Origin: Lachnospiraceae bacterium MA2020
Lineage (GTDB): Bacteria > Bacillota > Clostridia > Lachnospirales > Lachnospiraceae
Direction: 5' to 3'
Length of the DNA: 64,000 bases
Assembly: GCA_000746015.1 (NCBI GenBank)
Contig: JQKK01000015.1
Location: 1 to 64,000, forward strand
In this document: positions 11,767 to 37,262 of the stretch, piece by piece
Numbering within the stretch: the stretch's first letter is position 1
Layout: every line of letters starts with the position of its first letter
Made by a program: the position numbers and the translations under genes
The notes under the pieces: generated by a model
What the model saw: only the letters and a program-made list of their open reading frames with translations
Databases searched by the model: none
What the model was told of the DNA's origin: nothing

Positions 11767-11781
11767 GTAAATGCTTCCTTC

Positions 11782-18449: not shown

Positions 18450-19556
18450 CTAATTTAGTTTTCCCATCAACTCCCATACGTTTTCGAAACATTGTCCTAT
18501 TGTTAAATAACGGTAGGTTCCAAGTCTTCCTACCGCATATACATCTTTAGGCAAATTGTTTAAGTAAAGCATAGCCTTTTCTTTTTCAGATTTTATATTA
18601 TATGAATAAAGTTTATTACTATGCGATGGGACCTCCATCACTAATAAAGTATACGGGGACTTGTGTCCCGTAATTGCCTTATATTCTACTATCCTTGTAT
18701 ATTTTTCTGTATTAGGATAATGTATAAAATGATGTCCATCCTTAAAAGCATACTCCACAGGTAATACTATGGGATAAAAATCTCTTCCCATATAACGTAA
18801 TTCACCATATGTATTTTCCATAAGATCATCCAAAGCTATCGTAGAAATAATTATGTCAGCTCGAATTTTTTCATTATCTAGGTATACAATTTTCTTTTCT
18901 AAATCAACTTTTTCAATAGTTTTACCTAGAATGACTTTTGCATCTTTTACACAAAAATCAAAAAATCTGTTATAACCTGTTTCCTCTATAGGATAAGCAT
19001 GATTTGGTTTTCCTATAGCCAACTCTACAGTTCTATCACCTTTTTGTATTGGCCGCCCCTTCACTGACCACGAAAAATCCTCAAAAACTTTATTGCTGTC
19101 CACTTCCCACATTTTCTCGGTATATGTTTTTACATATTTCCCGTATAATGTAGGACCTACAGAATTCAGCCAACCATCTTCAAGATTTGTAGCATCATTA
19201 CATTTCGGAAGATTATCAAGTTCTCTAAGAATTTTCTCTTTATCTGGCATCAACTGAATATCATCCCAATGTATTGGGAATGAATAAAAGTTCCTATCCT
19301 TTTCTATATAGGTATCTAGATAAAGATGAAATAATCTCATTGGAACGATTTCATTTATATAATTAAATATCTTCTCATTTTCCACATGGAACGGGCGTGG
19401 ACCCTCGGTATACGGATGCCCACCCCAAAAAAAAGTGTGACATCCTCCCCCAAGATAATTATTTTTTTCTATTATAGTAACATCATATTTTTTTGCAGAT
19501 AATTCTCTTGCTGCAGCACAACCTGTTACCCCACCACCTAGTATTATTGCCTTCAT
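18450..19556 (-). CDS. FAD-dependent UDP-galactopyranose-mutase-like flavoprotein
   Basis: 368 aa. The N-terminal dinucleotide motif [16 protein letters not shown] and the [13 protein letters not shown] segment place it with FAD amine-oxidase and UDP-galactopyranose mutase (Glf)-like proteins. It also has a conserved-looking GPRPFH loop and a late [15 protein letters not shown] stretch like the RY/GRL.Y.Y.dM end of Glf. It could make a furanose nucleotide sugar; the sequence is diverged from true Glf, so a different flavin reaction is possible. It overlaps the epimerase gene by 4 bp. Confidence 0.7.
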
Positions 19557-20404
19557 TTGATACTCCTAACTTTTGCCTCTTCTACTACTTCATCCAAGAT
19601 ATCTGATATCGACTTCGAATGATAACCATCAATTAACGCTTTTGAACAATTAATATAAAACCCATCTGTTCCCTCAATAAAATTTACCATTGATTTTGAT
19701 TTAATCCTTTTACACAAATTTGAAATCAGTTGTTCTACTCGTATCTTCTCCTCTGTTCCCATTATATAAGTTTCTGAACCTTCCATTTTCCCCTTTACTA
19801 AAGTAGCTACAAAATCACAAATATCTTCAATTTCAACTACATTATTAAACAAACCTTTTGGATTATAAACATCAATTTTTTCATTTTTATACAATGATAT
19901 AGCCGTATTTATAAGCCAATTCGAATTACATTCTTTTCCTATTACTCCCGGAAGAATCAAAATTCTATTGTTTATACCGCTTTCTCTAATAAGTTTTTCT
20001 GCTACTAGTTTTGAAATACCATAACTATCTGTACCTTTATGAGGTGTATCTTCTCTTAGTTCCCCCGAAACATTTCCATACGATGAAACCGCAGCCAAGT
20101 ATATGATCTTACTGATACCATTATTTTTTGCGAAATCTATAATATTTTTAGTACCAATTATATTTCCAACCACATATTCATCCATTTTTCTATTCTTTCT
20201 CGGATTTACAGCTGCTGCATGAATAATGGCATCAGCATAGATACCAACATCTAGCGGTTTTGAAATATCCCTTACAATTATGTTCTCTCTTAGTTCCCTT
20301 TTCTCTGTACGTACTATACCAATCGTATCATGACCATTTTTTGAAAAATGGCTCATCATATAAGAACCAATAAAACCATTTGCTCCTGTAATGATTACTT
20401 TCAT
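19553..20404 (-). CDS. NAD-dependent sugar epimerase/dehydratase
   Basis: 283 aa short-chain-dehydrogenase-type protein: the NAD motif [12 protein letters not shown] (5-16), IHAAAVNP, and the catalytic YGISK (Tyr and Lys near 126-130). It belongs to the extended SDR family that epimerises, reduces or dehydrates nucleotide sugars. At 283 aa it is shorter than UDP-glucose 4-epimerase and closer to RmlD-like or GDP-sugar reductases. Coupled with the flavoprotein by an ATGA overlap. Confidence 0.85.
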
Positions 20405-20611
20405 ATATACCCCACAATTGATATTTATTATAATAAGTCGTTATAAATGAATAGATAAAAATCAACCATACATCATTAATCACAAATACATGCGAGATAT
20501 TCAGTCACTTTGCCTTCAAATAGGTAGTTCCATAAATTATTTGTTCCGAATAAAAGACCTGCGTGTTGTCCATTCCAATATACTTGTAACATGTATCATA
20601 TAGCGTCGCGC

Positions 20612-20992
20612 CTAAAAATACACTTCTACACCCACTTCAAATATAATAGGGTGCCCCTCTTTATTTAACGAAAGATCATGAATTTTTCTTAAATCCAAAA
20701 CACTTAATAAAAGATTTGATTTTACAACAATTTCATTATTATAGGTGTTTTTCGCATAATCATAAGTTCTTTTACAAATATTTTTCATTAACTCAGATTC
20801 TTTATGTGTCACCCCCACTAACAGCAGTAAATCATGTTCACTCTTTATCCCTAAATCATGCATAGAATCAACATATTTCCATAATTTTGAATTATCATCT
20901 ACATGTATTGGAAACCCTGTCAAATTAAAAAACTCTATTTTAAATACCTGAATAAATAAGTTTGGTAAATGCCTTTTTGGAATTATTTTCAC
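20612..20992 (-). CDS. hypothetical protein
   Basis: 126 aa, not recognised. It is rich in Ile, Lys and Asn with no membrane segment or clear motif. The start MKIIPKRHLPN has no strong RBS, and gaps of about 165 and 207 bp separate it from its neighbours, unlike the tight packing elsewhere. It may be a remnant of a larger gene or a locus-specific small protein. Confidence 0.4.
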   Translation of the reverse strand: MKIIPKRHLPNLFIQVFKIEFFNLTGFPIHVDDNSKLWKYVDSMHDLGIKSEHDLLLLVGVTHKESELMKNICKRTYDYAKNTYNNEIVVKSNLLLSVLDLRKIHDLSLNKEGHPIIFEVGVEVYF

Positions 20993-21156
20993 AATTATAA
21001 TACTCTTTGGCTGAAATATGCATGTAATATACTCTCTGTATTATTCTTTAAAATTGAAAAACTCCTTAAATTAATAGAATTTCTTCGAAAAAATAAATTC
21101 TACCAATAGAATAAATTCATTTTATTCATAACTGTTTTTATAATTTGCATTTATTG

Positions 21157-21819
21157 TTACTCGAAAAATATAAAACTATAATCCCCAGTATATCTCCACT
21201 CTTTATACAACCATTCCCATTCATCCACTGCATAATAGCTTGCACAGGTAAGCTGCCAATAGAGCATGTTCACTTCTTCTTTATCATTACGAAAACTTTC
21301 TACCATTATGTAGCTGTTTCCTTTGCTAACTCTTTCTATCTCCTGAACTGCTTTCTTTAGATCAAAAATCTTAAGGTTGTGCAATGTTGTAAGTGAAATA
21401 ACAAGATCAAAACTGTTATCTTCAAAAGGAAGTTTTGTTGCATTTCCTTTTACCAGCTTGTCTCGAATTTCCTCTTTTGCATGTTCCAATGCATAGTCCG
21501 AAATATCGATTCCTGTAACTTCAATCCCCGGAACCACCTGTGTAAATTCATAGAGAAGATGCGCCATTCCACAGCCTACATCAAGAATTTTCATCCCAGG
21601 CTTTAATGTATAATGCTCTGCCATTTTCTCAGCAACACTTCGCCATCTTCCATCATAACGATAACCACCATAACCATATTTCCGATCACCATCCCAGTAA
21701 TCAAAACCATATTGTTTGGCAATAACTGCACATTCTGCTTTGTCATCACTTGTAACTCTTCCGATATAGTCACGTTTTGTTGCCTTATGAAGTTCTGAAA
21801 TAAAATCAATATATGCCAT
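21157..21819 (-). CDS. class I SAM-dependent methyltransferase
   Basis: 220 aa. The SAM-binding core is clear: ILDVGCGMAHLL (motif I), the acidic end of strand two in VTGIDISDYAL, then NATKLPFEDNSFDLVISL (motifs II-III). It would methylate a small molecule, probably an OH or N on the sugar. The gene lies 15 bp downstream of the transketolase C subunit and ends the heptose/transketolase block. Confidence 0.88.
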   Translation of the reverse strand: MAYIDFISELHKATKRDYIGRVTSDDKAECAVIAKQYGFDYWDGDRKYGYGGYRYDGRWRSVAEKMAEHYTLKPGMKILDVGCGMAHLLYEFTQVVPGIEVTGIDISDYALEHAKEEIRDKLVKGNATKLPFEDNSFDLVISLTTLHNLKIFDLKKAVQEIERVSKGNSYIMVESFRNDKEEVNMLYWQLTCASYYAVDEWEWLYKEWRYTGDYSFIFFE

Positions 21820-21834
21820 ACTTTCAATCCTAAA

Positions 21835-22749
21835 CTATTCCATCATCTGCAAAATTGTTTCTTTTATCTGCGTTCTTCCAATTCCATTAGCTATCTTTAC
21901 TTCCTCATGAGTTCCATATCCTTTTGAAAAACTATGTAATCCCAAACGTCTGAATTTAATGCCTCTACCATATTCAGCTATTACTTCGGAAACAGCACTT
22001 CCAAGACCACCTATGATGTTGTGATCCTCAACAGTAAGTATTGCTTTTGTCTCATCTATTGCCTTTTGAACTATTTTTTCATCTAAAGGTTTCAAAGTAT
22101 GAATATTCAGAACTCTTATGCTATAGTTTTCTGCAGTTAACTCATCTGTTATAGCAAGTACATCATTACATATATTTCCTGTTGAAATAACTGTAAGATC
22201 ATTTCCTTCACGTAAAGTTATTCCCTTACCAATCTCAAAATCATAGTCTTCCTTATATATTTCTGCCTCTCTATTTGTACCCAGCCTCAAATATACCGGA
22301 CCAATATATTCGTAAGCAGCTTGCGTTGCCTTTTTAACTTCCATAGGTGACGCTGGATTTATTATTGTCAGATTTGGAAGATTTCTTAACCCACCTAAAT
22401 CTTCAGTTGAATGGTGGGTTGGTCCCAATACGCTATATACTTCTCCTGCGCCTGTTCCAACTATCTTTACATTCTGATTTTGAAGACATACATCATTTCT
22501 TATAAATTCAAACGCCCTATAGGCAAGAAAAGCGCCAATAGTATATGCAAATGGGATTTTTCCACATGACGCCATGCCCGCTGCCATACCAATCATGTTT
22601 GCCTCGGATATTCCTAAATTTAAATACTGTTTTGGAAAATCTGCTCTGAATTTATCATATACAATTGCTCCATTATCAGAAATAAGGGCATATACACGTT
22701 TATCTTTTTCTACCAGATCATGTAGTGTTTCCAAGTATGCACTGCGCAT
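21835..22749 (-). CDS. transketolase, C-terminal subunit
   Basis: 304 aa covering the pyrimidine-binding and C-terminal domains of transketolase. Visible are LGISEANMIGMAAGMA (the region that holds the Glu activating thiamine), the STEDLGGLRNLP stretch and the C-terminal VEDHNIIGGLGSAVSE. It forms an active two-subunit enzyme with the gene 3 bp upstream. Split transketolases in secondary pathways often act on one special sugar phosphate; here the heptose genes make sedoheptulose-7-phosphate a natural product. Confidence 0.9.
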   Translation of the reverse strand: MRSAYLETLHDLVEKDKRVYALISDNGAIVYDKFRADFPKQYLNLGISEANMIGMAAGMASCGKIPFAYTIGAFLAYRAFEFIRNDVCLQNQNVKIVGTGAGEVYSVLGPTHHSTEDLGGLRNLPNLTIINPASPMEVKKATQAAYEYIGPVYLRLGTNREAEIYKEDYDFEIGKGITLREGNDLTVISTGNICNDVLAITDELTAENYSIRVLNIHTLKPLDEKIVQKAIDETKAILTVEDHNIIGGLGSAVSEVIAEYGRGIKFRRLGLHSFSKGYGTHEEVKIANGIGRTQIKETILQMME

Positions 22750-22752
22750 ATG

Positions 22753-23574
22753 TTATCTCAAATCCTCCTCTGTTAATCCCAGTTCTTTCATAAGTATTGG
22801 AAGTTCTGATTCATTCGGCATCCTGTAGTGCCATATCGGAACATTCTCCATAAATGAAACACCCTTGCCCTTTATAGTATTAGATACAATCAGTGTAGGC
22901 TGCTTTTCTTTTCTTGAAAGAAGCGCTTCTCGGATTTCTTTATGGTCATGTCCATTTATTTCAACTACATTCCATCCAAATGCTTTCCATTTATCTGCAA
23001 AGGGTTTCATATGTACTATCTTTTCCAGCTCATCCATAGCTTGGCATTTATTATGGTCCACAATTACAGTAAGATTCAATAATTCCAAAGTTGGAGCAGA
23101 TAATGCACCTTCCCATACTGAACCTTCCTGACACTCTCCATCGCCAAGCATTACATATACATGATTATTCTTTTCATCTTGCTTTAAAGCATATGCCATA
23201 CCTATTCCAAGCGATAGTCCATGTCCCAATGCGCCCGTAGAAGCTTCAACTCCCGGTATTTCAAAGAGCTTTGGATGTCCGCCAAATGCTGACCCAGGTC
23301 TTCCAACTGTTCTTAATTCTTCCATAGGAAAATATCCAGCAAGTCCCAATGCTGCATATAATGCAAAGCAGGAATGCCCTTTACTTAGAATGAACCTGTC
23401 CCTGCCATCCCATACTGGATTACTCGCATCATATTTAAGTACATCACCAAAATATAGTACGCTTATTACATCTGTAGCTGAAAATGATCCAGCCATATGA
23501 CCCCCACCGGCATGATGCGCTATTTTGTATATTTCCTGCCTAATTTCTTTTGCTTTTAATTCTGTATCTGTCAT
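22753..23574 (-). CDS. transketolase, N-terminal subunit
   Basis: 273 aa covering the thiamine-diphosphate domain: GGGHMAGSFSATD, LSKGHSCFALYA, STGALGHGLSLG and the ThDP/Mg motif GDGECQEGSVWE followed by VIVDHNK. Conserved His residues (in GGGH, KGH and GHG) are present. It pairs with the C subunit downstream. The radical SAM gene lies 8 bp upstream, so all are likely co-expressed. Confidence 0.92.
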   Translation of the reverse strand: MTDTELKAKEIRQEIYKIAHHAGGGHMAGSFSATDVISVLYFGDVLKYDASNPVWDGRDRFILSKGHSCFALYAALGLAGYFPMEELRTVGRPGSAFGGHPKLFEIPGVEASTGALGHGLSLGIGMAYALKQDEKNNHVYVMLGDGECQEGSVWEGALSAPTLELLNLTVIVDHNKCQAMDELEKIVHMKPFADKWKAFGWNVVEINGHDHKEIREALLSRKEKQPTLIVSNTIKGKGVSFMENVPIWHYRMPNESELPILMKELGLTEEDLR

Positions 23575-23582
23575 TGTCCCTC

Positions 23583-24653
23583 TTATATAAAGTTGATATG
23601 ATTTCTATCAGTGCTTAAAAATGTATTTATAAGTTCATTTCTGCTATCATACACACAATGCTGATTACAGTTCTTTTTTGCATTAAAATTCTTGAATAAT
23701 TGCGTAGTCTCTTTCGATTTCCATAAATCACAAAATGATTCATTCTCTATGCTTCCAATACATCCATCAGAGAGATATGCCTTATCATGACAATAGTAAA
23801 CCTTACTATTAGCGGCAATTACACATATAAATTCTTTGATAGGACACTTGCTGTACTGCCGTTCAAAAAAAACACTGTCTGCAAAATCGCCAGTATAAAG
23901 ATCTATAATTCTGAAATGCTCATCATTAAGTTCTTCCTGAAGTTTTAACAAAGCTTCTGAAACTTCATCCTTAAAGCCTCCATGATAACCATAGGTATCA
24001 TTGGTACACATAGGTGAATACTTTACATGATTGGCTCCCAATTTTTTCATGAGCCTTCCCATCTCCGCTACCTGAGAATGGTTTTCTTTTGTTACAACCA
24101 TATTTACACCAAGCTCACAGGATTTATCTTTTATCTCTGCAAATTGCTTTATATTCTCACAAAGGACATCAAAACTTCCTTTTTTTATCCCTCTGATTGT
24201 ACAGTACTCATCATCATTAACTGACTCTATACTTATTCTTACCCATTTAGCTTTTGCTAGCAGCTCAGCTCTTTTACCATTTAGTAAACTTCCATTTGTA
24301 ATGATTGACAGATCAATTCTGGCATTGAGCACTGCTTCGAAGGATTCTTCTATGTACGGATAAAGAAGTGGCTCTCCCCCACCACTGAATGTAACTGCCT
24401 TTACACCAAGTTCTTTCATGCAATCTACTGTTTCAAGCATTTTTTCTCTTGGTATCTCATCGTTTGGATCATATTCATCCAAATCCAGGTATGAATTTCT
24501 ATAATGACAGTAATTACAGTTATGATTACACTTATTTGTAGGCTTTATTCGGATATATACCGGATTACATCTCTCACCCTTTAGTAAATGATCTAATATC
24601 TCCGGATGATAAAAAATCTTCAATTGACTATATGGTGTTTCATTTCTATTCAT
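23583..24653 (-). CDS. radical SAM protein, first of a related pair
   Basis: 356 aa with the cluster motif CNHNCNYC at 42-49, TFSGGGEPLLYP as the SAM-binding strand and C-terminal cysteines (SKCPIKEFIC, YYCHDKAY, CNQHCVYD) consistent with one or two auxiliary clusters. The N-terminus (IFYHPEILDHLLKGE) and the last residues (HINFI) match those of the next upstream gene, so the two are paralogues. Its place between transketolase and heptose genes suggests action on a sugar phosphate or nucleotide sugar. Confidence 0.85.
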   Translation of the reverse strand: MNRNETPYSQLKIFYHPEILDHLLKGERCNPVYIRIKPTNKCNHNCNYCHYRNSYLDLDEYDPNDEIPREKMLETVDCMKELGVKAVTFSGGGEPLLYPYIEESFEAVLNARIDLSIITNGSLLNGKRAELLAKAKWVRISIESVNDDEYCTIRGIKKGSFDVLCENIKQFAEIKDKSCELGVNMVVTKENHSQVAEMGRLMKKLGANHVKYSPMCTNDTYGYHGGFKDEVSEALLKLQEELNDEHFRIIDLYTGDFADSVFFERQYSKCPIKEFICVIAANSKVYYCHDKAYLSDGCIGSIENESFCDLWKSKETTQLFKNFNAKKNCNQHCVYDSRNELINTFLSTDRNHINFI

Positions 24654-24660
24654 AGCAACC

Positions 24661-25722
24661 TCAAATAAAATTCACATGTTCTCCCGGATACTTGAGTTCA
24701 TTCAAGTATTTATTAATCTCATCAAGTCTGCATGCCTCTCTGCATATTTCATTTATATCTGATGAATTGATCAGATTATTTATCTCTTTTCTCTTTTGGC
24801 TATTCCATATTTCTTCAAATGTATTCTCGTTTATGTTTCCATATTTATATTTATCTGTTCCTATATGTGCAACACAAGGCCATACATTTCCATGTGCATC
24901 TATATGTGCCATAAAAGGTAACCCCAAACACTGCTTATAGCATTTCTCACGATGCATCTTTTTCATCGCATTTGCTCTAAAATAGATTGAGAAATCTTCT
25001 GTTTCATATTCTTTAATTTCTTTTTCTAAATCCATCAGCTTTTCATAATCAATCTGAAATTTATTTTCACTATGCAGATGCTGTGAATATGGCTTTATAG
25101 TAAAATAATCAACTCCAATTTTTCTCAAGCTTTTTGCCATGTCTGGAAGCTGATTGATATTCTGAGGCAATAACAGACACTGTACTCCCAGAGTTGTTTT
25201 GTAATCTCTATCTTTTTTTATCCTTACTACATCTTCCAAATTATTTTTTACTCTAGCCAAGTCCCCTTTAGGAGTCCTCTGGATTTCGTAATATGATTTT
25301 TCTTCAAAACTGGCAATACTAAATCTAATCCATGTAAATGCACCAAGACACTCTTTAGCAGCATCTTTGTTAAACAATGCAGCATTCGAACTCATTGCCA
25401 CATCTACACCACATGCCTTGATCTGATTTACTATCTCGGGCATATCTTTATTGAGCATTGGCTCACCCTCACCAGAACAGATCACACTCTTTAATCCCCT
25501 AGTACTCATATGTCTGATATCTCTGAGTATCACATCCTTTTCAAGAAAGACTGGTTTATATCCCAGATAGTCTACTGCGCAAAAAACACATCTATGATTA
25601 CATGCTCCACTTGGCGATATCTCTATCTCAACTGGATAAATATTTTCTCCATTAAGCCATCTTGCCACTGCTTCCGGATGATATATGAGCTTATGTGAAT
25701 CCATCCTGATATTATCTGCCAT
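24661..25722 (-). CDS. radical SAM protein, second of a related pair
   Basis: 353 aa. The cluster motif CNHRCVFC lies at 41-48, the SAM strand is ICSGEGEPMLN, and Cys residues near the end (YKQCLGLPF, VWPCVAHIG, CREAC) look like a SPASM module with the usual IWNS turn. The N-terminal LIYHPEAVARWLNGE and the C-terminal HVNFI are shared with the paralogue at 23583, from which it is separated by 7 bp. Function on a sugar is inferred from context only. Confidence 0.85.
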   Translation of the reverse strand: MADNIRMDSHKLIYHPEAVARWLNGENIYPVEIEISPSGACNHRCVFCAVDYLGYKPVFLEKDVILRDIRHMSTRGLKSVICSGEGEPMLNKDMPEIVNQIKACGVDVAMSSNAALFNKDAAKECLGAFTWIRFSIASFEEKSYYEIQRTPKGDLARVKNNLEDVVRIKKDRDYKTTLGVQCLLLPQNINQLPDMAKSLRKIGVDYFTIKPYSQHLHSENKFQIDYEKLMDLEKEIKEYETEDFSIYFRANAMKKMHREKCYKQCLGLPFMAHIDAHGNVWPCVAHIGTDKYKYGNINENTFEEIWNSQKRKEINNLINSSDINEICREACRLDEINKYLNELKYPGEHVNFI

Positions 25723-25734
25723 AATTCCCCTTTT

Positions 25735-27270
25735 TTATATATTCAAAAGCGTTCCTGCAAATTTAAGCACATCCACTTTTTCCACTGACTCCCTGTTTCC
25801 TACTATATTTGCTCCAAGGGCTCCTGCTATATTCCCGAGGAAAAGCCCCGTTTCCATTGATGCTCCTGCTGCAGCATATATCCCTGATATGGAGTAAAAT
25901 GCATCCCCCGCACCTATAGTGTCCTTTACACTGAGTGTAAAAGCAGGTGACGAATCAATAACTCCATCATCGCAAGACTTTGCACCATCAGATCCTCTTG
26001 TAAGCCACCCCTTGCCATTCAAATGCTTACATAGCATTCTTAAAGCTTCATCTTCATCATCATCTGATACCTCAGGGAAAGCCATTCCTAATTCTGCCTG
26101 GTCTAATGAAAATCTGTCTGCCCTATGGTATTTCGTGATTATATTCTTTCCATGATTTGATGAATTTGTCTGGCAGTTTAAAATCATATATTTAGATTTT
26201 TCCTGAACGATATCTCTTATCTTATTTTTGATCAGACCATGACCAAAATCACATAAGAATACAACATCGAATTCTTCTATATTTTTTTTCAAATACTCGA
26301 CGATACTTTCCCATGTTTTCCTATCATATCGAGGTTTTTCCGGAATATTTGTTACTGCCAGTATTTTTCTATATTCCTCACGTTTTGCATCCATGGTTAA
26401 GTATCTATGCTTTATAATTGTTGGAAATACTTCACTTTTTACAAATTCAGTATTAATTTTATCTGCAATTTGCTTATCCAAAAGTTCTTGAATTTCAATC
26501 TCATTTCCAATAGCTGACAAAAGCGTTACATTATCACAAAAAGATGATAAATGTCTCGCTATAGCTAGGCTGCCTCCTAGATGCATCTCATCAGAATTCA
26601 CTCTTGCAGAATAGCCGGCATCCTTACTCATAAGCCCCTGCAATCTGCAATATGTATACCTGTCAATTATGACATCTCCAATTACAAGAACTTTCATATC
26701 CTTGATTTTGTCAGTCAAAGATATGATTTCCTCCATATTATGTCTTTTCTTAAAGTCCTCCATAAAACAAACAACTTCTTTTGGAAGTGCTGATAATCCA
26801 ATATTTATCAGCTTAGTTGAACTGAACACTTCACCGGTCGTATACCGTACAGTTCCTCCATGTTTTTCAACCAACTCTCTTTCGGGACGCATATTCTTAG
26901 TTACATCAGCATCCTCATTGGCATACTCAGCACCTTTTACATAATAATCAGGTTCAACCGCTTCTACTATGTCATCTACCGTATAGCCTTCAGACACCAT
27001 ACAGTAATCCACATATTCTATTGCTGACAGAAACTTTAGTCTCTGTTCATCATTAAAATATGGTCTGTCTGGACCCTTTCTGACAAATTCTGCTGCTGTT
27101 ATAGATACAACTAGTACATCAGCCATTGCTTTTGCCTGCTCTAGATGCGTGATATGACCGGCATGTACGAGATCAAAAACCCCATGACACAATGCAATTT
27201 TTTTTCTATCAGCTTTAAGTATAGGTCGAATCTTCTCCTTAAATTCAGCCTTAGTTACTATCTTCCCCAT
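25735..27270 (-). CDS. bifunctional heptose-phosphate adenylyltransferase/kinase, HldE-like with swapped domains
   Basis: 511 aa. Residues 1-150 are a cytidylyltransferase-type domain (CHGVFDLVHAGHI with the HxGH motif, then VSITAAEF and YYVKGAEY), matching the HldE adenylyltransferase half. Residues ~185-511 are a PfkB-family kinase (VIGDVIIDRY, then DTIGAGDAF with the catalytic Asp). In E. coli HldE the kinase comes first; here the order is reversed. Together with GmhA, GmhB and the epimerase it would convert heptose-7-phosphate to a nucleotide-activated heptose. The nucleotide (ADP or other) is not certain. Confidence 0.85.
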   Translation of the reverse strand: MGKIVTKAEFKEKIRPILKADRKKIALCHGVFDLVHAGHITHLEQAKAMADVLVVSITAAEFVRKGPDRPYFNDEQRLKFLSAIEYVDYCMVSEGYTVDDIVEAVEPDYYVKGAEYANEDADVTKNMRPERELVEKHGGTVRYTTGEVFSSTKLINIGLSALPKEVVCFMEDFKKRHNMEEIISLTDKIKDMKVLVIGDVIIDRYTYCRLQGLMSKDAGYSARVNSDEMHLGGSLAIARHLSSFCDNVTLLSAIGNEIEIQELLDKQIADKINTEFVKSEVFPTIIKHRYLTMDAKREEYRKILAVTNIPEKPRYDRKTWESIVEYLKKNIEEFDVVFLCDFGHGLIKNKIRDIVQEKSKYMILNCQTNSSNHGKNIITKYHRADRFSLDQAELGMAFPEVSDDDEDEALRMLCKHLNGKGWLTRGSDGAKSCDDGVIDSSPAFTLSVKDTIGAGDAFYSISGIYAAAGASMETGLFLGNIAGALGANIVGNRESVEKVDVLKFAGTLLNI

Positions 27271-27294
27271 CTTATCCTCTAAATTGCTCCTCGT

Positions 27295-28287
27295 TCAACT
27301 CAAATATTCAAACCAGTCCTTTGTTGCTTCCTTTATACTGTCTGCTGTCCACACTGGAGCCTTTCTCCAGTAATCTATGTTCTCAAGAATATGCTCTACT
27401 CCCTCTTCCAAAGATACTTTAGGATGCCAGTTAAGCATTGTATTTATCTTTGTCGTATCTGCCCAGGTACAGTCAGGCTCTCCCGGCCTTTTAGGAATAT
27501 GAATTACATCATCCTCCGTTCCACCAAGTAGCTCTACGAGCCTGTTTACTGAATAGGTATGTTCACTTCCAACATTAAAACGCTCCCCTACCACATCTGA
27601 CTGTGCTGCGGTATAGAAAGCATCCACAATATCAGTCACATACGTAAAGTCTCTTGTCTGTTCACCTGTTCCTACTACTGTGTATGGTTTACCTGCAAGT
27701 TTCTGTCCAAGGAAAACCCCAAATACTGCCCCATACGTTCCTGATGTTCTTGAGCGCGGTCCGTATACATTAAAGAGACACAGCGAAACAACTGGCAATT
27801 TATATACTTTTGCATAGTGAAGCGCCAGTTCTTCACCAAGTCTTTTTGTCAATGCATAAGGATATTCTGGTCTGATATCCGCATCCTCATTGGTTGGAAA
27901 TTTATCTGGAATTCCATAGCACGAAGAAGAAGCAGTGTACATAAATCTTTTAATCCCGGATTTTTTTGCCGCTTCAAGTACACTGAATGTGCCATCCACG
28001 TTTGAATGAAAATAATCCTGAGGTCTTTGGATTGAAGGAACTATATCTGCAAGTGCTGCAAAGTGAAATACCCAGTCAGCTCCTTCAAAAACAGGCGCTA
28101 TTTTTTCACTATCGCAGATATCAGCTTCTAAAATTCTTAAATTGGGATTATCTATTTGATGGACGAGGTTCTCAGGACGCCCGGTACTGAAATTATCAAC
28201 AACGCGTACTTCATGCCCTTCAGCAAGTAGCCTGTCTACCATATGTGAACCAATAAAGCCGCAGCCTCCTGTAACAACTGATACCAT
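27295..28287 (-). CDS. nucleotide-sugar epimerase (extended SDR)
   Basis: 330 aa. NAD motif VTGGCGFIGSHM at the N-terminus, then VDNFSTG, FHFAALADIVPS and the catalytic YALTK (Tyr/Lys about 143-147), plus a C-terminal sugar-binding region (RDFTYVTDIVDAF). It resembles UDP-glucose 4-epimerase and other SDRs acting on C4-C6. Being next to HldE-, GmhB- and GmhA-like genes it is a good candidate for epimerising the activated heptose, though the sequence itself is of the GalE kind rather than HldD. Confidence 0.85.
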   Translation of the reverse strand: MVSVVTGGCGFIGSHMVDRLLAEGHEVRVVDNFSTGRPENLVHQIDNPNLRILEADICDSEKIAPVFEGADWVFHFAALADIVPSIQRPQDYFHSNVDGTFSVLEAAKKSGIKRFMYTASSSCYGIPDKFPTNEDADIRPEYPYALTKRLGEELALHYAKVYKLPVVSLCLFNVYGPRSRTSGTYGAVFGVFLGQKLAGKPYTVVGTGEQTRDFTYVTDIVDAFYTAAQSDVVGERFNVGSEHTYSVNRLVELLGGTEDDVIHIPKRPGEPDCTWADTTKINTMLNWHPKVSLEEGVEHILENIDYWRKAPVWTADSIKEATKDWFEYLS

Positions 28288-28334
28288 TCCCTCAACTCTC
28301 CATTTCTTAAAAAATTCAAGTCAATTTGTAATAT

Positions 28335-28886
28335 TTATTCTCTTGCAGTCCTCTTAACAATTATATCTAGGGCTTTTTTTAAATCGTCACATATATAATC
28401 TGGATGAATATCTTTCTTTTCCTCCTGTTTTCCGTATCCAGTGCGGACAAGAATGGTTTTTATTCCTACGTTTTTACCAGTCTGAATATCTATTTCTCTA
28501 TCACCGATAAAAAATGATTTATTAAGGTCTATGTCAAAATCGTTGCAAGCAATTTCTATAAGACCAATGTTAGGCTTTCGACACCTACACTTAATGCTGT
28601 ATTTTGTTACTATTCCTTCTAAATGATGTGGACAGTAATACACTGCGTCAACTCTTGTCGTTTCTTTTAGAAGGTTATTCATTTTTATAAGTTCTTCTTC
28701 AGAGAAGAGCCCTCTTGCCACTCCACTTTGGTTGGTAATCACTATTGCAAGCATCCCTGCTTCATGAATTTTCTTTATGCAATCTGTCACAAAAGGGTAT
28801 ATTGGCATATCATCAATTTGCTTTACATATCCATATTCTTCAACAATTACACCGTCTCGATCCAAAAAAATTGCTCCGCTACTCAT
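28335..28886 (-). CDS. gmhB: heptose bisphosphate phosphatase, GmhB-like
   Basis: 183 aa HAD phosphatase of the HisB/GmhB type: FLDRDGVIVEEYGYV at 7-21, ITNQSG, and the zinc loop seen as YCPHHLEG...CRCRKP. The last motif FIGDREIDI provides the magnesium Asp. It removes the C7 phosphate from D-glycero-manno-heptose-1,7-bisphosphate. Its ATG overlaps the gmhA stop (TAATG), tying the two steps together. Confidence 0.9.
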   Translation of the reverse strand: MSSGAIFLDRDGVIVEEYGYVKQIDDMPIYPFVTDCIKKIHEAGMLAIVITNQSGVARGLFSEEELIKMNNLLKETTRVDAVYYCPHHLEGIVTKYSIKCRCRKPNIGLIEIACNDFDIDLNKSFFIGDREIDIQTGKNVGIKTILVRTGYGKQEEKKDIHPDYICDDLKKALDIIVKRTARE

Positions 28887-29455
28887 TAAATCTGAACGCC
28901 ATCTCTTTCTGTGATTATGTCAACAATTTCTTGCAATATCAGATTGTGGATAGATTCCACAATGCCATATTTATGACAAGGTACATACACATTTTTATCA
29001 CCAAGTTTTCTTATTGGATTATCCTCATCAAATCCTGTAAATGTGTAGACATCAACTTTTTTGTCTCTAGCCTCCTGTATCGCATTTAAAACGTTCTGTG
29101 ATCTTCCGGAGCTACTGATAGCTACAAGCAAATCTCCGTCTGATGCTAAAAATGATAGTGGTCTTGCAAAAATTTGTTCATAACCATAATCATTTCCAAT
29201 ACAAGTAATAACTGCCGAGTCATAGAGGCTATAAGTGTTCATTCCTCCATTTTTCATATAGTCAGCAGTCATATGACATGCAATTGCCGCACTTCCACCA
29301 TTTCCTATAAAAAAAATCCTTGCTCCGCATTTTTTTATATTGCTAAATCCTTCAATCAGATTCTTTATTCCATCTTCATATTTGAAATTATTCCTACTGG
29401 TTCCAAATTCAGTGCTACTTAATATATCAATTAGTTTTTTTGTATACTCATCCAT
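28886..29455 (-). CDS. gmhA: phosphoheptose isomerase, GmhA-like
   Basis: 189 aa SIS-domain protein: GNGGSAAIACHMTADY (about 50-65), SLYDSAVITCIGNDYGYE, AISSSGRSQNV, and late HNLILQEIVD. These are the substrate-binding and catalytic regions of GmhA. It converts sedoheptulose-7-phosphate to D-glycero-D-manno-heptose-7-phosphate. In the same block a transketolase can make sedoheptulose-7-phosphate, so the pathway may be self-contained. Confidence 0.92.
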   Translation of the reverse strand: MDEYTKKLIDILSSTEFGTSRNNFKYEDGIKNLIEGFSNIKKCGARIFFIGNGGSAAIACHMTADYMKNGGMNTYSLYDSAVITCIGNDYGYEQIFARPLSFLASDGDLLVAISSSGRSQNVLNAIQEARDKKVDVYTFTGFDEDNPIRKLGDKNVYVPCHKYGIVESIHNLILQEIVDIITERDGVQI

Positions 29456-29468
29456 ATTTTTCCCCTAG

Positions 29469-30587
29469 CTATAAGCTAATTGAATTGTCCTTTATTATTT
29501 TCGCAATTGAATCTATCTGCTTTACCTGTAAATCCTCAAATAGTGGAAGTACTATAACTTGATTGGACAGTTGCCTCGCCATCTTAAGATTTGCGTTCTT
29601 ATATCGATTTTTAAAGCAAGCTTGATCTGCCGTTAATGGGTAGAAATACTTTCGACTGTATATATTATGTTCAGCAAGTAATCTATGTAGTTCGTCTCTG
29701 TTCTTGCCATATTTTTTTTCTACAAAAATCGGAAAATATGCATAATTCCTTGTAGCAATAACATCTGGCTTCGGTATTCTGATTCCCGGGACATCGCTCA
29801 AAAGCTGACTATACAATTCATATGATTTCTTACGCGCATTCAATACTTCATCAATATACTTTAAATTGCATAGCCCCATAATCGCAGAGAATTCATTCAT
29901 CTTGCCATTTGCACCTACAGAAGCTGTTAATTCCTCATTTCGAATACCAAAGTCTTTAAGATCATACATTTTTGAATACATATCCTGATCTTTGCAAACC
30001 ACAGCGCCGCCTTCTATTGTGTGGAATACTTTAGTTGCATGAAAGCTGAATATTGCAGCATCGCCATAGTTACCAATACCTTTATTATGATATTTAATCC
30101 CAAACGCATGCGCTGCATCGTAAATTACTTTTAAGCTATATTTATCAGCAATTTCTTTTATCTTTTCTATGTTGCATATATTACCGTATACGTGCACCGG
30201 TACTATCGCTACTGTTTTAGGTGTTATTAATTCTTCTATTTTTTTTTCATCTATTGTTCCATCAGATTCCTTAACATCACAAAATACAGGTTCAAGATGA
30301 TTTCTTACAATAGCATGTGTTGTGGAAACAAAAGTGAAAGGAGTAGTGATTACCTCACTTCCCTCAGGAAATCCAAATGATTGTATGACAAGCTCAAGCG
30401 CTGTATGTCCATTTACGGTTAAAGATATAAGTGGCACATCCAAGTAATCTTGTAGCTCTTTTTCAAGTTGCTGATGATATTTACCCATATTAGTGAGCCA
30501 TCTGCTCTCCCACAATGGTTTGATAGCTTCAATAAACTCCTCATATGGAGGCATTGAAGATCGTGTGACATATATTGGTTTATCCAT
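29469..30587 (-). CDS. DegT/DnrJ/EryC1/StrS-family PLP aminotransferase
   Basis: 372 aa. The PLP-binding region reads IFSFHATKVFHTIEGG, with the Schiff-base Lys in HATK, preceded by VIYDAAHAFG whose Asp pairs with the PLP nitrogen, and SLTVNGHTALEL near the N-terminus. These enzymes add an amino group to a keto nucleotide sugar (or, rarely, dehydrate it). It is the first enzyme gene after loaP and 13 bp upstream of gmhA, so an aminated sugar is likely in the final glycan. Confidence 0.92.
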   Translation of the reverse strand: MDKPIYVTRSSMPPYEEFIEAIKPLWESRWLTNMGKYHQQLEKELQDYLDVPLISLTVNGHTALELVIQSFGFPEGSEVITTPFTFVSTTHAIVRNHLEPVFCDVKESDGTIDEKKIEELITPKTVAIVPVHVYGNICNIEKIKEIADKYSLKVIYDAAHAFGIKYHNKGIGNYGDAAIFSFHATKVFHTIEGGAVVCKDQDMYSKMYDLKDFGIRNEELTASVGANGKMNEFSAIMGLCNLKYIDEVLNARKKSYELYSQLLSDVPGIRIPKPDVIATRNYAYFPIFVEKKYGKNRDELHRLLAEHNIYSRKYFYPLTADQACFKNRYKNANLKMARQLSNQVIVLPLFEDLQVKQIDSIAKIIKDNSISL

Positions 30588-30735: not shown

Positions 30736-31503
30736 TCATCCTATCTTCTCCACCTGATCTACTGATAATTCTATATCTATTAACTCATTAAACATCATTA
30801 TCTTTGATGTCAATTTACGTTTTTGTAGATTTACTTTGTCTACCACAAATATTCTATCGATATAAGTTCCACTTATATCTCTAACCTTATCTCCTGGATA
30901 TATACCAATATCATATGTATTTGAAATGCTTCCAAGAGTTAGATTCTTTTGTCGTGCATCCTCTATCCACTGGATCTTCTCATCTTCCTCTGTCCAAAGA
31001 CCAAACTTTATGCGACGTTTCTTTCCAAACACTTCTGTCTCTACGATAGCTCTCCGACGTCGTAGTTCAATCTTTGTTATGTTTTTAGCATATTTTTCAA
31101 GCGGACCTATGATACGATTGATCCGACTTCCATTACTTGACTCCACATAGCTTACAGTCATTATTCCATTTGAAAGGATCGACTCAAGGAAATCTGCATC
31201 ATCTTGTGTTATTGCTGTAAACTTCTTTTCATCCTCATCGTCTTCTACACCAAGTACTTTTGAAAACTCATGTATTATCATCTTAGATTTTGCCATCATT
31301 ACTTGTTTTGGATAATCTGTATCTACCAAGATGTATCCTGGAAAAAGACATTTATAATTAATCTGACTTATACCACCAGTCCTTGTTACATCCTCAAACT
31401 GTGGTATAAGAAACTTGTTGTATTCACTTTTTGATAATACTCGTTTTAGTTCTTGCACAAGACTCTGTTCATAGCCAGTTCTTGTTTGTATTACATACCA
31501 CAT
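30736..31503 (-). CDS. loaP: NusG-like transcription antiterminator, LoaP type
   Basis: 255 aa. The N-terminal NGN domain begins MWYVIQTRTGYEQSL and includes the FLIPQFED and LFPGYILVDT strands; a KOW-like segment (YPGDKVRDISG) is near residues 200-215. NusG paralogues of this size at the head of long polysaccharide operons in Firmicutes are LoaP antiterminators that load on RNA polymerase at a leader hairpin and let it read through terminators. The start at 31503 has GGGGAGAGGTAAAT upstream; the open frame runs 23 codons further. It precedes about 28 kb of co-directional glycan genes. Confidence 0.85.
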   Translation of the reverse strand: MWYVIQTRTGYEQSLVQELKRVLSKSEYNKFLIPQFEDVTRTGGISQINYKCLFPGYILVDTDYPKQVMMAKSKMIIHEFSKVLGVEDDEDEKKFTAITQDDADFLESILSNGIMTVSYVESSNGSRINRIIGPLEKYAKNITKIELRRRRAIVETEVFGKKRRIKFGLWTEEDEKIQWIEDARQKNLTLGSISNTYDIGIYPGDKVRDISGTYIDRIFVVDKVNLQKRKLTSKIMMFNELIDIELSVDQVEKIG

Positions 31504-31528
31504 ATTTACCTCTCCCCTATAAAAAATC

Positions 31529-31569
31529 ATGGCTTCGCCATCACACACCCGAGAATAAAAAAGTGTGTG
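31529..31569 (-). promoter_or_regulatory. two adjacent leader hairpins before loaP
   Basis: On the minus strand CACACAC (31563-31569) pairs with GTGTGTG (31542-31548), and directly after it ATGGC-GAA-GCCAT (31529-31541) forms a tight hairpin followed by GATTTTTTAT. The second looks like a minimal intrinsic terminator. Compact leader hairpins of this kind are what LoaP needs for loading in the cases I know, so this is a candidate target site. Confidence 0.5.
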
Positions 31570-31639
31570 CATGATTCCACTTTGTTCAATATGACTCCCA
31601 TGATCGACAGAGCCGCTTGCATGCTTATCATATTTCTTC

Positions 31640-32080: not shown

Positions 32081-33106
32081 TCATTCACATACCATTATCT
32101 TACAATAGTCTTCCTTTTTATCCCGCATTATTTCCAATCCTTTTTCTAGTTCTTCCAACTTTAATCTATGCGTAATAAGTTTATCCGGTTGCACATTTCC
32201 TTCTGCCAGTCTTTTTATAACATAGTGCCAGTCATCGTCTATCTTACCTGTAAACCTTGAGTTCCATGTGCCGAGAATTCTTAATTGCTTTCTCAATATT
32301 TTCCAGTATACTTTTTGTGGAAATTCTATATCTGATGCAGGGTTACCTGCTGTTACCATTGTGCCTTCCGGTGCTAACAGCTCTAACCCCTGAAGTATGC
32401 TTTCCTTTTTTCCAACACACTCAAAATAGAGATTCACATCTATATCTTTTTCCCACTTTTCAAAGTACCTGTCTTCTGCAACTCCAAGTTCCATTACTCT
32501 ATTCTTTTGAGAAGTCTTATTTCCTATTACATAAACATTTCTATAGCCAGCTTCAAGCAAAAAACTTACTATTAGAAGACCAATAGTTCCTAGTCCACAC
32601 ACTACTATATTTGCTGAATTTACTAGCTTAAATTCATCTGTTCCTTTTCTTATTGCATACACCGCTACTGCCATAGGCTCAAGCATTGCAGCATTTTCAT
32701 AAGAAACATCATCCGGCAATTCTATCAGATTAGATTCCGGTACGGCTGCAAGCTGTGCAAATCCCCCATTACTTCTGGATCCAAGATAATTGTAATTACT
32801 GCACATCTCATATTTCTCTGTCTGGCACATCTTACACTTTCTACATGGAATCAATGGAAAAACACCAACTCTTTTTCCTATCCACTTCTCACTTACTTTT
32901 GTTCCTATCGATTTTACTATTCCAGAAAACTCATGTCCTATGATAAGTGGATATACATGAGCATCTCCACGATAAACTCGTGGAACATCTGAGCCGCAGA
33001 TACCACAGGCTTTAACCTCTAGTAAAACCTCATTTTCCTTTATTTTGGGATCAGCTATTTCTTCATATCTTATATCACTTTTCTGATGCAGTACCCATGC
33101 TTTCAT
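32081..33106 (-). CDS. zinc-dependent medium-chain polyol(-phosphate) dehydrogenase, possibly TarJ-like
   Basis: 341 aa. Catalytic zinc ligands are seen in CGICGSD (Cys near 37) and GHEFSG; the structural zinc cysteines are in CRKCKMCQTEKYEMC; the NAD fold is VVCGLGTIGLLIVSF. It resembles galactitol-1-phosphate, sorbitol and ribitol-5-phosphate dehydrogenases. It overlaps the IspD/TarI-type gene by 4 bp. In TarI/TarJ pairs the dehydrogenase makes ribitol-5-phosphate from ribulose-5-phosphate for the cytidylyltransferase, so a CDP-polyol is the probable product. Confidence 0.8.
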   Translation of the reverse strand: MKAWVLHQKSDIRYEEIADPKIKENEVLLEVKACGICGSDVPRVYRGDAHVYPLIIGHEFSGIVKSIGTKVSEKWIGKRVGVFPLIPCRKCKMCQTEKYEMCSNYNYLGSRSNGGFAQLAAVPESNLIELPDDVSYENAAMLEPMAVAVYAIRKGTDEFKLVNSANIVVCGLGTIGLLIVSFLLEAGYRNVYVIGNKTSQKNRVMELGVAEDRYFEKWEKDIDVNLYFECVGKKESILQGLELLAPEGTMVTAGNPASDIEFPQKVYWKILRKQLRILGTWNSRFTGKIDDDWHYVIKRLAEGNVQPDKLITHRLKLEELEKGLEIMRDKKEDYCKIMVCE

Positions 33107-33813
33107 TTCTCAAATACCATCCTAAAATGCTCGACATCTTTTTGCGTTGTTACTTTTACATTTGATTCATCACCATCTATCATGGCAATATTCATACCCG
33201 CAAGCATTGCAACTTCTGATGCACCGTTTATCTTTAAGATTTTTTCAGGCAATAATTCTATATTTGCCTTATAGTATTTATCCATATTAAAGAGTTCCGG
33301 TGCTTGCCCTGCAAATATCTTTGATCTTTCAAGAAGCTTTGTTATTCTTTTGCCATCTTCACTTAAGTATACTGTATCTTTCATTGGAAGAACCGGCATC
33401 ACTCCATCATTCCCCGGTAATGCCTTGTAACAACGTTCTATCAATTTCTCTGCCAAAAATGGTCTCGCTGCATCATGTACCAAAACCGTACTATTACTTG
33501 CATCTTTTTCCTTTTCTATATCATTAATGATAGCCTTCATTCCATTTAGTATTGATAGTTGACGATTTGCCCCGGGCTCAGCAGTTCCGGCAATTTTTTT
33601 ACTATTCAATCCTGATTTTTCCGCATCGTAAATAATCTCCTTCAGCCACGCATTATCTGCTACTATGTACACTTTATCTATATAATTGCAATTCAATAAT
33701 GGTTTTAGTGCATAGCTGGTCATCATATGCCCACTGGCTTTTATATACTGCTTTGGAAGGTTGGTTTTCGCTCTTTTCCCGACTCCTCCTGATAACAACA
33801 AAGCATAATTCAT
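33103..33813 (-). CDS. IspD/TarI-family cytidylyltransferase
   Basis: 236 aa: ALLLSGGVGKRAKTNLPKQYI at the N-terminus (the CTP loop), VLVHDAARPF with the metal Asp in the middle and late KVTTQKDVEHF. IspD and TarI cannot be told apart reliably by eye. The direct link to a polyol dehydrogenase and a LicD transferase favours TarI (CTP + ribitol-5-phosphate to CDP-ribitol) over isoprenoid synthesis. The ATG at 33813 follows GGAG by 8 bases. Confidence 0.82.
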   Translation of the reverse strand: MNYALLLSGGVGKRAKTNLPKQYIKASGHMMTSYALKPLLNCNYIDKVYIVADNAWLKEIIYDAEKSGLNSKKIAGTAEPGANRQLSILNGMKAIINDIEKEKDASNSTVLVHDAARPFLAEKLIERCYKALPGNDGVMPVLPMKDTVYLSEDGKRITKLLERSKIFAGQAPELFNMDKYYKANIELLPEKILKINGASEVAMLAGMNIAMIDGDESNVKVTTQKDVEHFRMVFEK

Positions 33814-33828
33814 AAATATCACTCCATT

Positions 33829-36237: not shown

Positions 36238-37077
36238 TTAGCCAAGGATTGAAAGGATTCCCTGCTTCTGCTGATTAGCCTGTGCAAGCATTGACTGTCC
36301 AGCCTGTGCAAGAATATTGGCATTAGAGAATTTAACCATCTCTGAAGCCATATCTGTATCACGAATCTCTGCCTCAGCACTCTGAGTATTCTCAGCAATG
36401 TTATCAAGATTCTTGATTGTGTGCTCAAGTCTGTTCTGAAGAGCACCGAGCTTAGATCTCTGATTAGAAACAGATGTAATAGCAGCCTTAATAGTACTGA
36501 TTCCACCTGTGATAACAGATCCATTCGCATTAGTAACCAGATTCTTAATACCACTAACACCGAGACTTGTAGAATCCATCTTGCAGATATCAATGCCGAT
36601 CATCTGACCATTCTCTGAACCAATCTGAAGACTCTTATTTGTAAAATTACCATTAAGAAGCATCTGGTCATTGAATGCTGTGGTAGACTGAACTCTATCA
36701 ATCTCAGATGTAAGAGCTGTAATCTCCTGGCTGATATAAGCTCTATCGTCAGACTTAAGTGTATCATTAGCAGCCTTTGTGGTCAGCTCACTCATTCTCT
36801 GAAGCATATCCTGTACTTCCTGAAGAGCACCTTCAGCTGTCTGTACTACAGAGATACCATCCTGTGCGTTTGCAGAAGCCTGTGTAAGACCTCTTACCTG
36901 ACGGCGCATCTTTTCAGATATAGCCAATCCTGCTGCATCGTCCGCTGCTCTGTTGATCTTGTATCCTGATGAAAGCTTCTCAGTAGACTTTTTAAGTGTG
37001 CCCTGAGTGATGTTATAATTTCTGTTTGCGTTGATTGCAGAGATATTGTGCTGTACGCCATTGTTAATGCTACCCAT
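36238..37077 (-). CDS. flagellin
   Basis: 279 aa, the filament subunit. The N-terminal D0/D1 region (NISAINANRNY, KSTEKLSSGYKINRAADDAAGLAIS, shown here in two parts) and the C-terminal D1/D0 region (LGALQNRLEHTI, ending QQKQGILSILG) are well conserved; the variable middle is short, so it is a minimal flagellin. The start at 37077 is set by AAGGAGGTTTACT upstream; the frame is open for 46 codons more but that stretch is leader. It has its own sigma-D promoter and terminator. LicD genes on both sides suggest that the filament may carry a phosphate-linked glycan. Confidence 0.95.
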   Translation of the reverse strand: MGSINNGVQHNISAINANRNYNITQGTLKKSTEKLSSGYKINRAADDAAGLAISEKMRRQVRGLTQASANAQDGISVVQTAEGALQEVQDMLQRMSELTTKAANDTLKSDDRAYISQEITALTSEIDRVQSTTAFNDQMLLNGNFTNKSLQIGSENGQMIGIDICKMDSTSLGVSGIKNLVTNANGSVITGGISTIKAAITSVSNQRSKLGALQNRLEHTIKNLDNIAENTQSAEAEIRDTDMASEMVKFSNANILAQAGQSMLAQANQQKQGILSILG

Positions 37078-37094
37078 AGTAAACCTCCTTGTCT

Positions 37095-37120
37095 GATGTC
37101 TACCGCCTATCGGTGACATC
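37095..37120 (-). promoter_or_regulatory. hairpin next to the flagellin ribosome binding site, possible CsrA region
   Basis: GATGTC-A...ACCG-ATAGG-CGGT-A-GACATC folds into a two-part stem (37095-37120) directly before ACAAGGAGGT, which holds the Shine-Dalgarno and matches the CsrA-type ANGGA core. Another AGGA lies in a possible CCGG-stem loop at 37178-37196, and ACGCCG (37194-37199) can pair with CGGCGT (37121-37126). hag leaders in Bacillus are controlled by CsrA in this way; here it is an inference. Confidence 0.4.
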
Positions 37121-37262
37121 ACGCCGTCAAATCCTTTTGAACGGGTTGAATTGTAATAAGTATTTTTATAATAAGCTCCGGCTCCTAGGCTACCGGCGTT
37201 TATTATCTGATTCAAGCGAATTAATGTATCATTTTGTATACGTTATTCACTTTTCATCCTTT

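Follow-up and report, generated by a model that had tools for sequence, protein, structure and literature searches.

We analysed a 64,000-nucleotide stretch of DNA from Lachnospiraceae bacterium MA2020 (assembly GCA_000746015.1, contig JQKK01000015.1, positions 1 to 64,000 of the forward strand; hereafter the window), which carries a run of genes for heptose activation, radical S-adenosylmethionine (SAM) chemistry and a split, thiamine diphosphate (ThDP)-dependent transketolase. Genes were identified from open frames with Pfam and NCBIfam profiles. The run is co-directional on the minus strand, extends from 30587 to 21157, and its neighbouring genes are 3–47 bases apart or overlap by 1 base (Table 1). 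A preliminary description of this DNA had listed, in one direction, GmhA, GmhB, an HldE-like protein, an epimerase, a pair of radical SAM proteins, both parts of a transketolase and a methyltransferase, and all of these were found as minus-strand frames. The span that it gave for them, 21835–29455, encloses every named gene except the methyltransferase, which lies just outside. A DegT-type gene adjoins the span upstream, and farther downstream come a short-chain dehydrogenase/reductase (SDR) gene and a GLF-like gene.

Table 1. Genes of the run and adjoining genes in the window, with profile scores
Feature	Position	Strand	Evidence and remarks
LoaP-like NusG paralogue	30736..31572	-	head of run; NF033641 99 bits (cut-off 125)
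DegT/DnrJ-type sugar aminotransferase	29469..30587	-	PF01041 331 bits; best NCBIfam match DesI 286 bits (cut-off 650); heads the run; optional
GmhA-like SIS isomerase	28886..29455	-	SIS_2; GmhA equivalog TIGR00441 95 bits (cut-off 209)
GmhB-like HAD-IIIA phosphatase	28335..28886	-	GmhB equivalog PRK08942 158 bits (cut-off 178)
Extended SDR, epimerase type, base heptose set	27295..28287	-	PF01370; LegB 181, GalE 177 and HldD 111 bits, all below cut-off (HldD cut-off 275)
HldE-like fusion in reverse order, nucleotidyltransferase (N) and PfkB kinase (C)	25735..27270	-	CTP_transf and PfkB; HldE-domain equivalogs 105 bits (cut-off 345) and 96 bits (cut-off 181.5)
Radical SAM A, radical SAM/SPASM	24661..25722	-	proposed sugar dehydrogenase, ketone maker
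Radical SAM B, radical SAM/SPASM	23583..24653	-	paralogue of A, 27% identical to it
Split transketolase, N-terminal (ThDP-binding) subunit, TktN	22753..23574	-	Transketolase_N 156 bits; ThDP-motif residues kept
Split transketolase, C-terminal subunit, TktC	21835..22749	-	Transket_pyr and Transketolase_C; altered sugar site; proposed C2 carboligase
Class I SAM methyltransferase	21157..21819	-	Methyltransf_31 83 bits
Small SDR	19553..20404	-	possible branch-ketone reductase; relatives beside transketolase/methyltransferase genes elsewhere
UDP-galactopyranose-mutase-like (GLF-like) flavoprotein	18450..19556	-	PF03275 76 bits; TIGR00031 100 bits (cut-off 304); possible sugar ring contraction

The locus holds homologues of GmhA, of a kinase, of GmhB, of a nucleotidyltransferase and of an epimerase, the same enzyme types as the ADP-heptose pathway (GmhA, HldE, GmhB and HldD; gmhA, hldE and rfaD in E. 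coli K-12). The cluster differs from that pathway in its reversed fusion, in its proteins that score below family cut-offs, in a changed isomerase site and in an added extension of radical SAM, ThDP and methyltransferase genes. Since the scores fall under the NCBI curated cut-offs, we regard the heptose enzymes as diverged relatives. Residues 11–120 of the fusion correspond to residues 325–439 of E. coli HldE and residues 194–490 to HldE 13–303, with identities of 34% and 22% to the two HldE domains. The isomerase and E. coli GmhA share 34% identity, and at E65 and R69, which we take to be catalytic site residues of GmhA, all 12 aligned members of its family (window included) have E65 changed to Asp and the R69 loop deleted. 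The SDR of the set is 26% identical to HldD (rfaD) of E. coli K-12 and 82–84% identical to copies at other loci (L011 and L052–L054). It carries the motifs SSSCYG...YALTK, and by eye the Asp-Glu dehydratase motif is absent, on which ground we rejected it as a 4,6-dehydratase. Genes for the fusion, the isomerase, the phosphatase and the SDR also occur in another genome of the window's own family, G289; a search of this genome gave no radical SAM protein of the cassette family, the examined stretches around its heptose genes held no transketolase, and the sole match to TktC in the genome was one 640-residue frame. The heptose genes can thus occur by themselves, as a base set, and the radical SAM and ThDP enzymes look like an extension of it.

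A search for the same gene order in other genomes, as the preliminary description had suggested, recovered it in Lachnospiraceae bacterium NK4A144 and, without GmhB, in genome G420. NK4A144 (locus L005) is the closest named relative: its order is the same from GmhA to the GLF-like gene, with a fusion 92% identical, a methyltransferase 94% identical and a GLF-like gene 80% identical to those of the window. In G420 (L011), from the same phylum and another class, GmhA, SDR, fusion, radical SAM A, radical SAM B, TktN, TktC and a methyltransferase (84% identical; 45% in the viral contig L036) follow one another in the same order. The gene order shared by these two loci is more than chance. No DegT-type gene adjoins GmhA in L005, and no GmhB-like gene was found in the examined stretches of L011, L052, L053 and L054. 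The methyltransferase and the small SDR are separated in the window by about 750 bases (20405–21156) with a short open frame only, and adjoin in L005. Relatives of the small SDR lie beside transketolase or methyltransferase genes in L005 (42% identical), L052 (29%) and, weakly, L053 (27% over 154 amino acids); SDRs at the matching place in L054 and L026 show no clear kinship to it.

The genome searches scored few first-look candidates per genome (for example three or five), and their counts are lower bounds. Counting MA2020 itself, the fusion occurs in at least 2 of 392 genomes of the order and radical SAM A in at least 3 of 398 genomes of the phylum. A draw of 250 genomes from the class of G420 gave the fusion in at least six (E up to 1e-60) and the radical SAM family in at least five (E up to 1e-45), and all five radical SAM genomes were among the six fusion genomes (Fisher 7.7e-10; the fusion and radical SAM draws appear to be one and the same). 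In one of these genomes, G827, fusion and radical SAM gene lie on separate short contigs, the latter also with GmhA-like, TktN and TktC genes. The sixth fusion genome is G810. The preliminary description had tied heptose-activation genes to radical SAM and methyltransferase genes in a Gram-positive host, and this association is borne out for a diverged set in Bacillota with its nearest counterpart in NK4A144. It had also held that independent occurrence of the heptose and radical SAM genes would speak against it: heptose genes do occur without radical SAM in G289, whereas five of five radical SAM genomes carry the fusion. Solidesulfovibrio carbinolicus and Azospirillum oryzae each have a version of the cassette on a plasmid. 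In three plasmids of Pseudomonas aeruginosa the match to the fusion is confined to its nucleotidyltransferase part, and the one examined has a stand-alone gene within another gene set.

We then scored 34 fusion loci from genomes, plasmids and viral contigs, the window among them, with profiles built from the same set. A member of the radical SAM family was present in 23 of the 34, and all 23 also had a ThDP enzyme, against 3 of the 11 loci without radical SAM (Fisher 9e-6, kinship ignored). At least two of the eight fusion loci with neither enzyme are cut stretches (L055, which comes from G827, and L027); L027 is on the same contig as L124, which has an E1-like pair and a radical SAM gene. The ThDP enzymes are of three classes: split transketolases at eight loci (the window, L005, L009, L011, L026 and L052–L054), enzymes like pyruvate dehydrogenase (PDH) E1 at ten (L010, L012, L029, L032–L034, L037 and L040–L042), and enzymes like acetolactate synthase (ALS) or YerE at five (L030, L031, L035, L043 and L044). 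Pfam placed nine of ten ThDP proteins above the cut-off for a ThDP-enzyme domain, the second subunit of L033 falling below it. The E1-like calls in L033, L034 and L039–L042 come from a weak profile (51–86 bits), and Pfam found an E1 domain in both of those tested, L033 and L040. For a viral ALS-like enzyme the best match in the PDB was 8rph, which is JanthE (PMC12188165), an enzyme called YerE-like in a review of ThDP enzymes making tertiary alcohols (PMC12247030). According to the text of that review available to us, keto-sugars are branched by YerE-like decarboxylases (yersiniose), by E1-like alpha-keto acid dehydrogenases 2 (aldgamycin, kibdelomycin) and, as a proposal, by split transketolases (miharamycin, amipurimycin), all beside sugar-activation genes. 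The ThDP classes of the cassette are, as judged from their sequences, the same three classes that the review links to C-branched sugars; the cluster differs from those pathways in having heptose-type activation genes, and radical SAM proteins where the known pathways use other ketone makers. The three classes interchange, which fits a common role in moving a short carbon unit onto a sugar carbonyl.

The same link recurred among viral contigs. Six viral radical SAM queries returned 69 loci, of which 60 had a ThDP gene; among loci of at least 12 kb the figure was 52 of 55. Control loci, retrieved with a structural-region protein of L029 as the query, had a ThDP gene in 0 of 31 cases at that length and in 0 of 80 at any length. 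Kinship was ignored in these counts, and nine of the 69 loci lie on contigs of the first set. A second control, with a DegT query, returned two loci, one of them on the query's own contig, and was not used. The set of fusion, SIS isomerase, radical SAM and ThDP genes is present, complete or for the most part, on phage-like contigs (L026, L029–L037, L039–L044 and L069–L136), several of which, by eye, have it among structural genes. In PHROG, the families that contain the viral ThDP and SIS genes are without a named function. Used as single queries against the viral contigs, radical SAM A and TktN of the window gave no relative; a viral radical SAM protein had no match among named phage records, and the fusion had two partial matches there.

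The transketolase pair of the window keeps the ThDP-binding and catalytic residues (H26, H66, H100, G154-D155-G156, E160, N185, H261, E411 and H473, numbered as in E. coli TktA) and has H461 changed to Gly and D469 to Leu. We take these two positions to serve phosphate and acceptor recognition. Both are lost in nine of ten cassette copies (two partial) and kept in the exception, L009, whereas six of eight split copies outside the cassette keep both. On its contig 10 the MA2020 genome holds another split transketolase, next to a gene that by eye is Rpe-like, and this copy keeps H461 and D469; the term non-cassette, used for copies in other genomes, implies no housekeeping role. L036 is the one viral transketolase in the residue comparison, L026, L084, L122 and L123 being left out. 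The column for R520 is out of register in the split enzymes and was set aside in this comparison; the difference at R520 rests on separate comparisons, and L036 keeps Arg at this position. In a tree of 17 rows, seven of eight cassette copies, including a viral-contig copy, formed one clade (96/94), with the non-cassette L233 and L238 beside it. The partial cassette copies of G827 and G810 were left out of the tree, as were frames of about 580–670 residues, and L036, L009 and E. coli TktA have long branches in it. L233 (G971:C30, about 58 kb) and L238 (G1007:C1, about 70 kb) may be further carbon-branching enzymes.

Across 87 distinct members of the radical SAM family, C41, C45 and C48 are present in 100% and C265, C283, C327 and C331 in 98–99%, and this CX3CX2C motif with four auxiliary Cys is the twitch-domain pattern. 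BtrN (PDB 4m7t) likewise has three radical SAM Cys and four auxiliary Cys. Radical SAM epimerases can use a donor Cys. No Cys beyond the seven cluster ligands is conserved family-wide, and a Cys that 67% of the family share is replaced by Tyr in radical SAM A, so a Cys-donor epimerase was rejected for this protein. A structure model of radical SAM A (pLDDT, the predicted local distance difference test score, 88.9) has DesII (PDB 8hzv) as its best fold match (Foldseek rank 1; Z 27.3 over 338 residues, 14% identity), ahead of BlsE (24.7), SuiB (24.5), SkfB (24.4) and BtrN (19.2). At the sequence level, PDB matches with E <= 0.001 were BtrN (top, 29 bits, a weak match), DesII and SuiB, and the DesII family profile TIGR04426 gave 52 bits, under its cut-off of 450. 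In the text available, DesII dehydrogenates TDP-quinovose, a nucleotide sugar, can yield a ketone and also deaminates (PMC11434129), and BtrN is described as carrying out the two-electron oxidation of an aminocyclitol (PMC9012708). The predicted fold is relevant because a branching ThDP enzyme would need a ketone maker and the SDR of the base set lacks the dehydratase motif. We therefore propose that the radical SAM enzyme may oxidise a sugar to a ketone, as the DesII-like fold suggests; the fold alone is no proof of function.

On balance, we favour the reading in which the radical SAM and ThDP enzymes of the cluster serve to build an activated C-branched heptose, with nine carbons in all, that would go into a surface glycan. 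This reading draws on the gene content and order, the linkage of radical SAM and ThDP enzymes, the interchange of three ThDP classes, the loss of two sugar-site residues and the DesII-like predicted fold; each chemical step in the following scheme is one that we infer, as are the nucleotide, the position oxidised, the radical SAM protein that acts, the donor and the final glycan. Sedoheptulose-7-phosphate (S7P) would be drawn from the ordinary pentose-phosphate pool and converted to a nucleoside diphosphate (NDP)-heptose by five activities: GmhA-like isomerase, fusion kinase, GmhB-like phosphatase, fusion nucleotidyltransferase and epimerase. A twitch-type radical SAM enzyme would then turn one ring carbon into a ketone, standing in for the 4,6-dehydratase or dehydrogenase of known branched-sugar pathways. 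The split transketolase would transfer a hydroxyacetyl unit from a ketose donor to the sugar ketone, giving a tertiary alcohol, after which an SDR may reduce the branch ketone and the methyltransferase would add a methyl group. A branch-ketone reductase is known from paulomycin, where the available text assigns it to the aldo-keto reductase family (PMC4753412). More tentatively, and at somewhat less than an even chance in our estimation, a radical SAM dehydrogenase with an interchangeable ThDP carboligase may constitute a general two-enzyme module for C-branched nucleotide-heptoses, with carriers among gut Bacillota and tailed-phage contigs and on plasmids of Solidesulfovibrio and Azospirillum, and without a description in the open-access papers reached. 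We found no paper on the gene combination in a search of the open-access literature, subscription papers lying outside it.

Several observations weigh against a ketone-making radical SAM enzyme coupled to a branching transketolase. The review calls ketone branching by transketolases unproven in the text available (PMC12247030). L233 and L238 have also lost H461 and D469, so that this loss is not unique to the module, and the Solidesulfovibrio transketolase (L009) keeps both residues and falls outside the cassette clade, and its gene points away from those for the fusion, the SIS protein and radical SAM. The linkage has gaps: L036, L039 and L056 show a ThDP enzyme without radical SAM in the examined stretch, the genome of L056 (G810) has fusion and transketolase and no radical SAM protein of the cassette family, and three radical SAM loci of at least 12 kb (L094, L106 and L111) show no ThDP gene. 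The control loci are relatives of the carrier phage contig, and 3 of the 80 (L141, L142 and L144) are on contigs that carry part of the module. Radical SAM types A and B can each occur without the other, L052–L054 having a B-like copy without an A-like one, and the peptide-modifying enzymes SuiB and SkfB also fit the fold of radical SAM A well (Z 24.5 and 24.4). Finally, a GFO/IDH-type oxidoreductase (11782–12963) or a second SDR in the island could make the ketone instead.

The last point leads to the strongest alternative, which we consider unlikely but well short of negligible: the radical SAM protein would act as dehydratase, epimerase or lyase, and another enzyme of the island, such as the GFO/IDH-type protein, would supply the carbonyl (ketone or aldehyde) to which the ThDP enzyme joins its carbon unit. 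DesII itself deaminates (PMC11434129, in the text available), the adjacent DegT aminotransferase is nearest to DesI, and epimerases and peptide enzymes are among the twitch/SPASM folds. The family has, however, no conserved Cys beyond the cluster ligands, which disfavours a Cys-donor epimerase, and the tightness of the link between radical SAM and ThDP enzymes suggests that one makes the substrate of the other.

A second alternative lets the ThDP enzyme act first and build an elongated or atypical ketose phosphate such as an octulose, which the GmhA-like and HldE-like enzymes would isomerise and activate. The lincosamide octose pathway is a precedent for this order, and since the GmhA-like and HldE-like proteins score below family cut-offs and the isomerase site is altered, their substrate could differ. 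We nevertheless judge it improbable: from mechanistic reasoning, the pyruvate-using E1-like and ALS-like enzymes would yield 1-deoxyketoses, which an aldose-ketose isomerase could not convert to aldoses, and G289 has the isomerase/kinase set without adjoining ThDP genes.

Equally improbable is the idea of the preliminary description that the split transketolase is a private source of S7P for GmhA, with radical SAM and methyltransferase decorating ADP-heptose: S7P is the textbook GmhA substrate, transketolase and heptose genes adjoin, the catalytic ThDP residues are intact and the Solidesulfovibrio copy has a canonical sugar site, but the cassette enzyme has lost H461 and D469, the second split transketolase of the host has a canonical site, other loci have in place of the transketolase E1-like or YerE-like enzymes, which are not expected to make S7P, and the base heptose genes of G289 have no adjoining transketolase. 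On the residue loss, the swapped ThDP classes and this base set, we rejected the transketolase as the S7P supplier.

Upstream of the run, a flagellin gene (36238–37215) lies between two LicD-like proteins, near IspD/TarI-like and TarJ-like genes (names by eye; neighbourhood coordinates 33829–36072, 37328–39181, 33103–33822 and 32081–33106). In view of these genes, the sugar of the cluster may decorate flagellin or a wall polymer. The LoaP-like NusG paralogue is a possible processive antiterminator for a long glycan operon. A DAHP (3-deoxy-D-arabino-heptulosonate 7-phosphate) synthase gene (10732–11766), above the aroFGH cut-off, lies among GFO/IDH, ATP-grasp and glycosyltransferase genes (9606–14153) and perhaps supplies a heptulosonate-type sugar. 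At the far end of the island is a gene pair resembling an IS21-type transposase (95–2496, by eye).

For the carbon-branching enzymes, the module supplies split-transketolase candidates from other phyla. In the available text of the review (PMC12247030), the candidates number 13 sequences, all from Streptomycetes and none assayed in vitro, whereas those described here come from Bacillota, Solidesulfovibrio and viral contigs. The module also pairs the ThDP enzyme with a definite partner: a DesII-like radical enzyme, a candidate for making the ketone. This renders the question of transketolase branching testable. Phage-like contigs are seen to carry most of a predicted pathway for branching an activated sugar. 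If this cluster does make the proposed activated C-branched heptose, the branched sugars of bacterial surface glycans would include one of a new kind.

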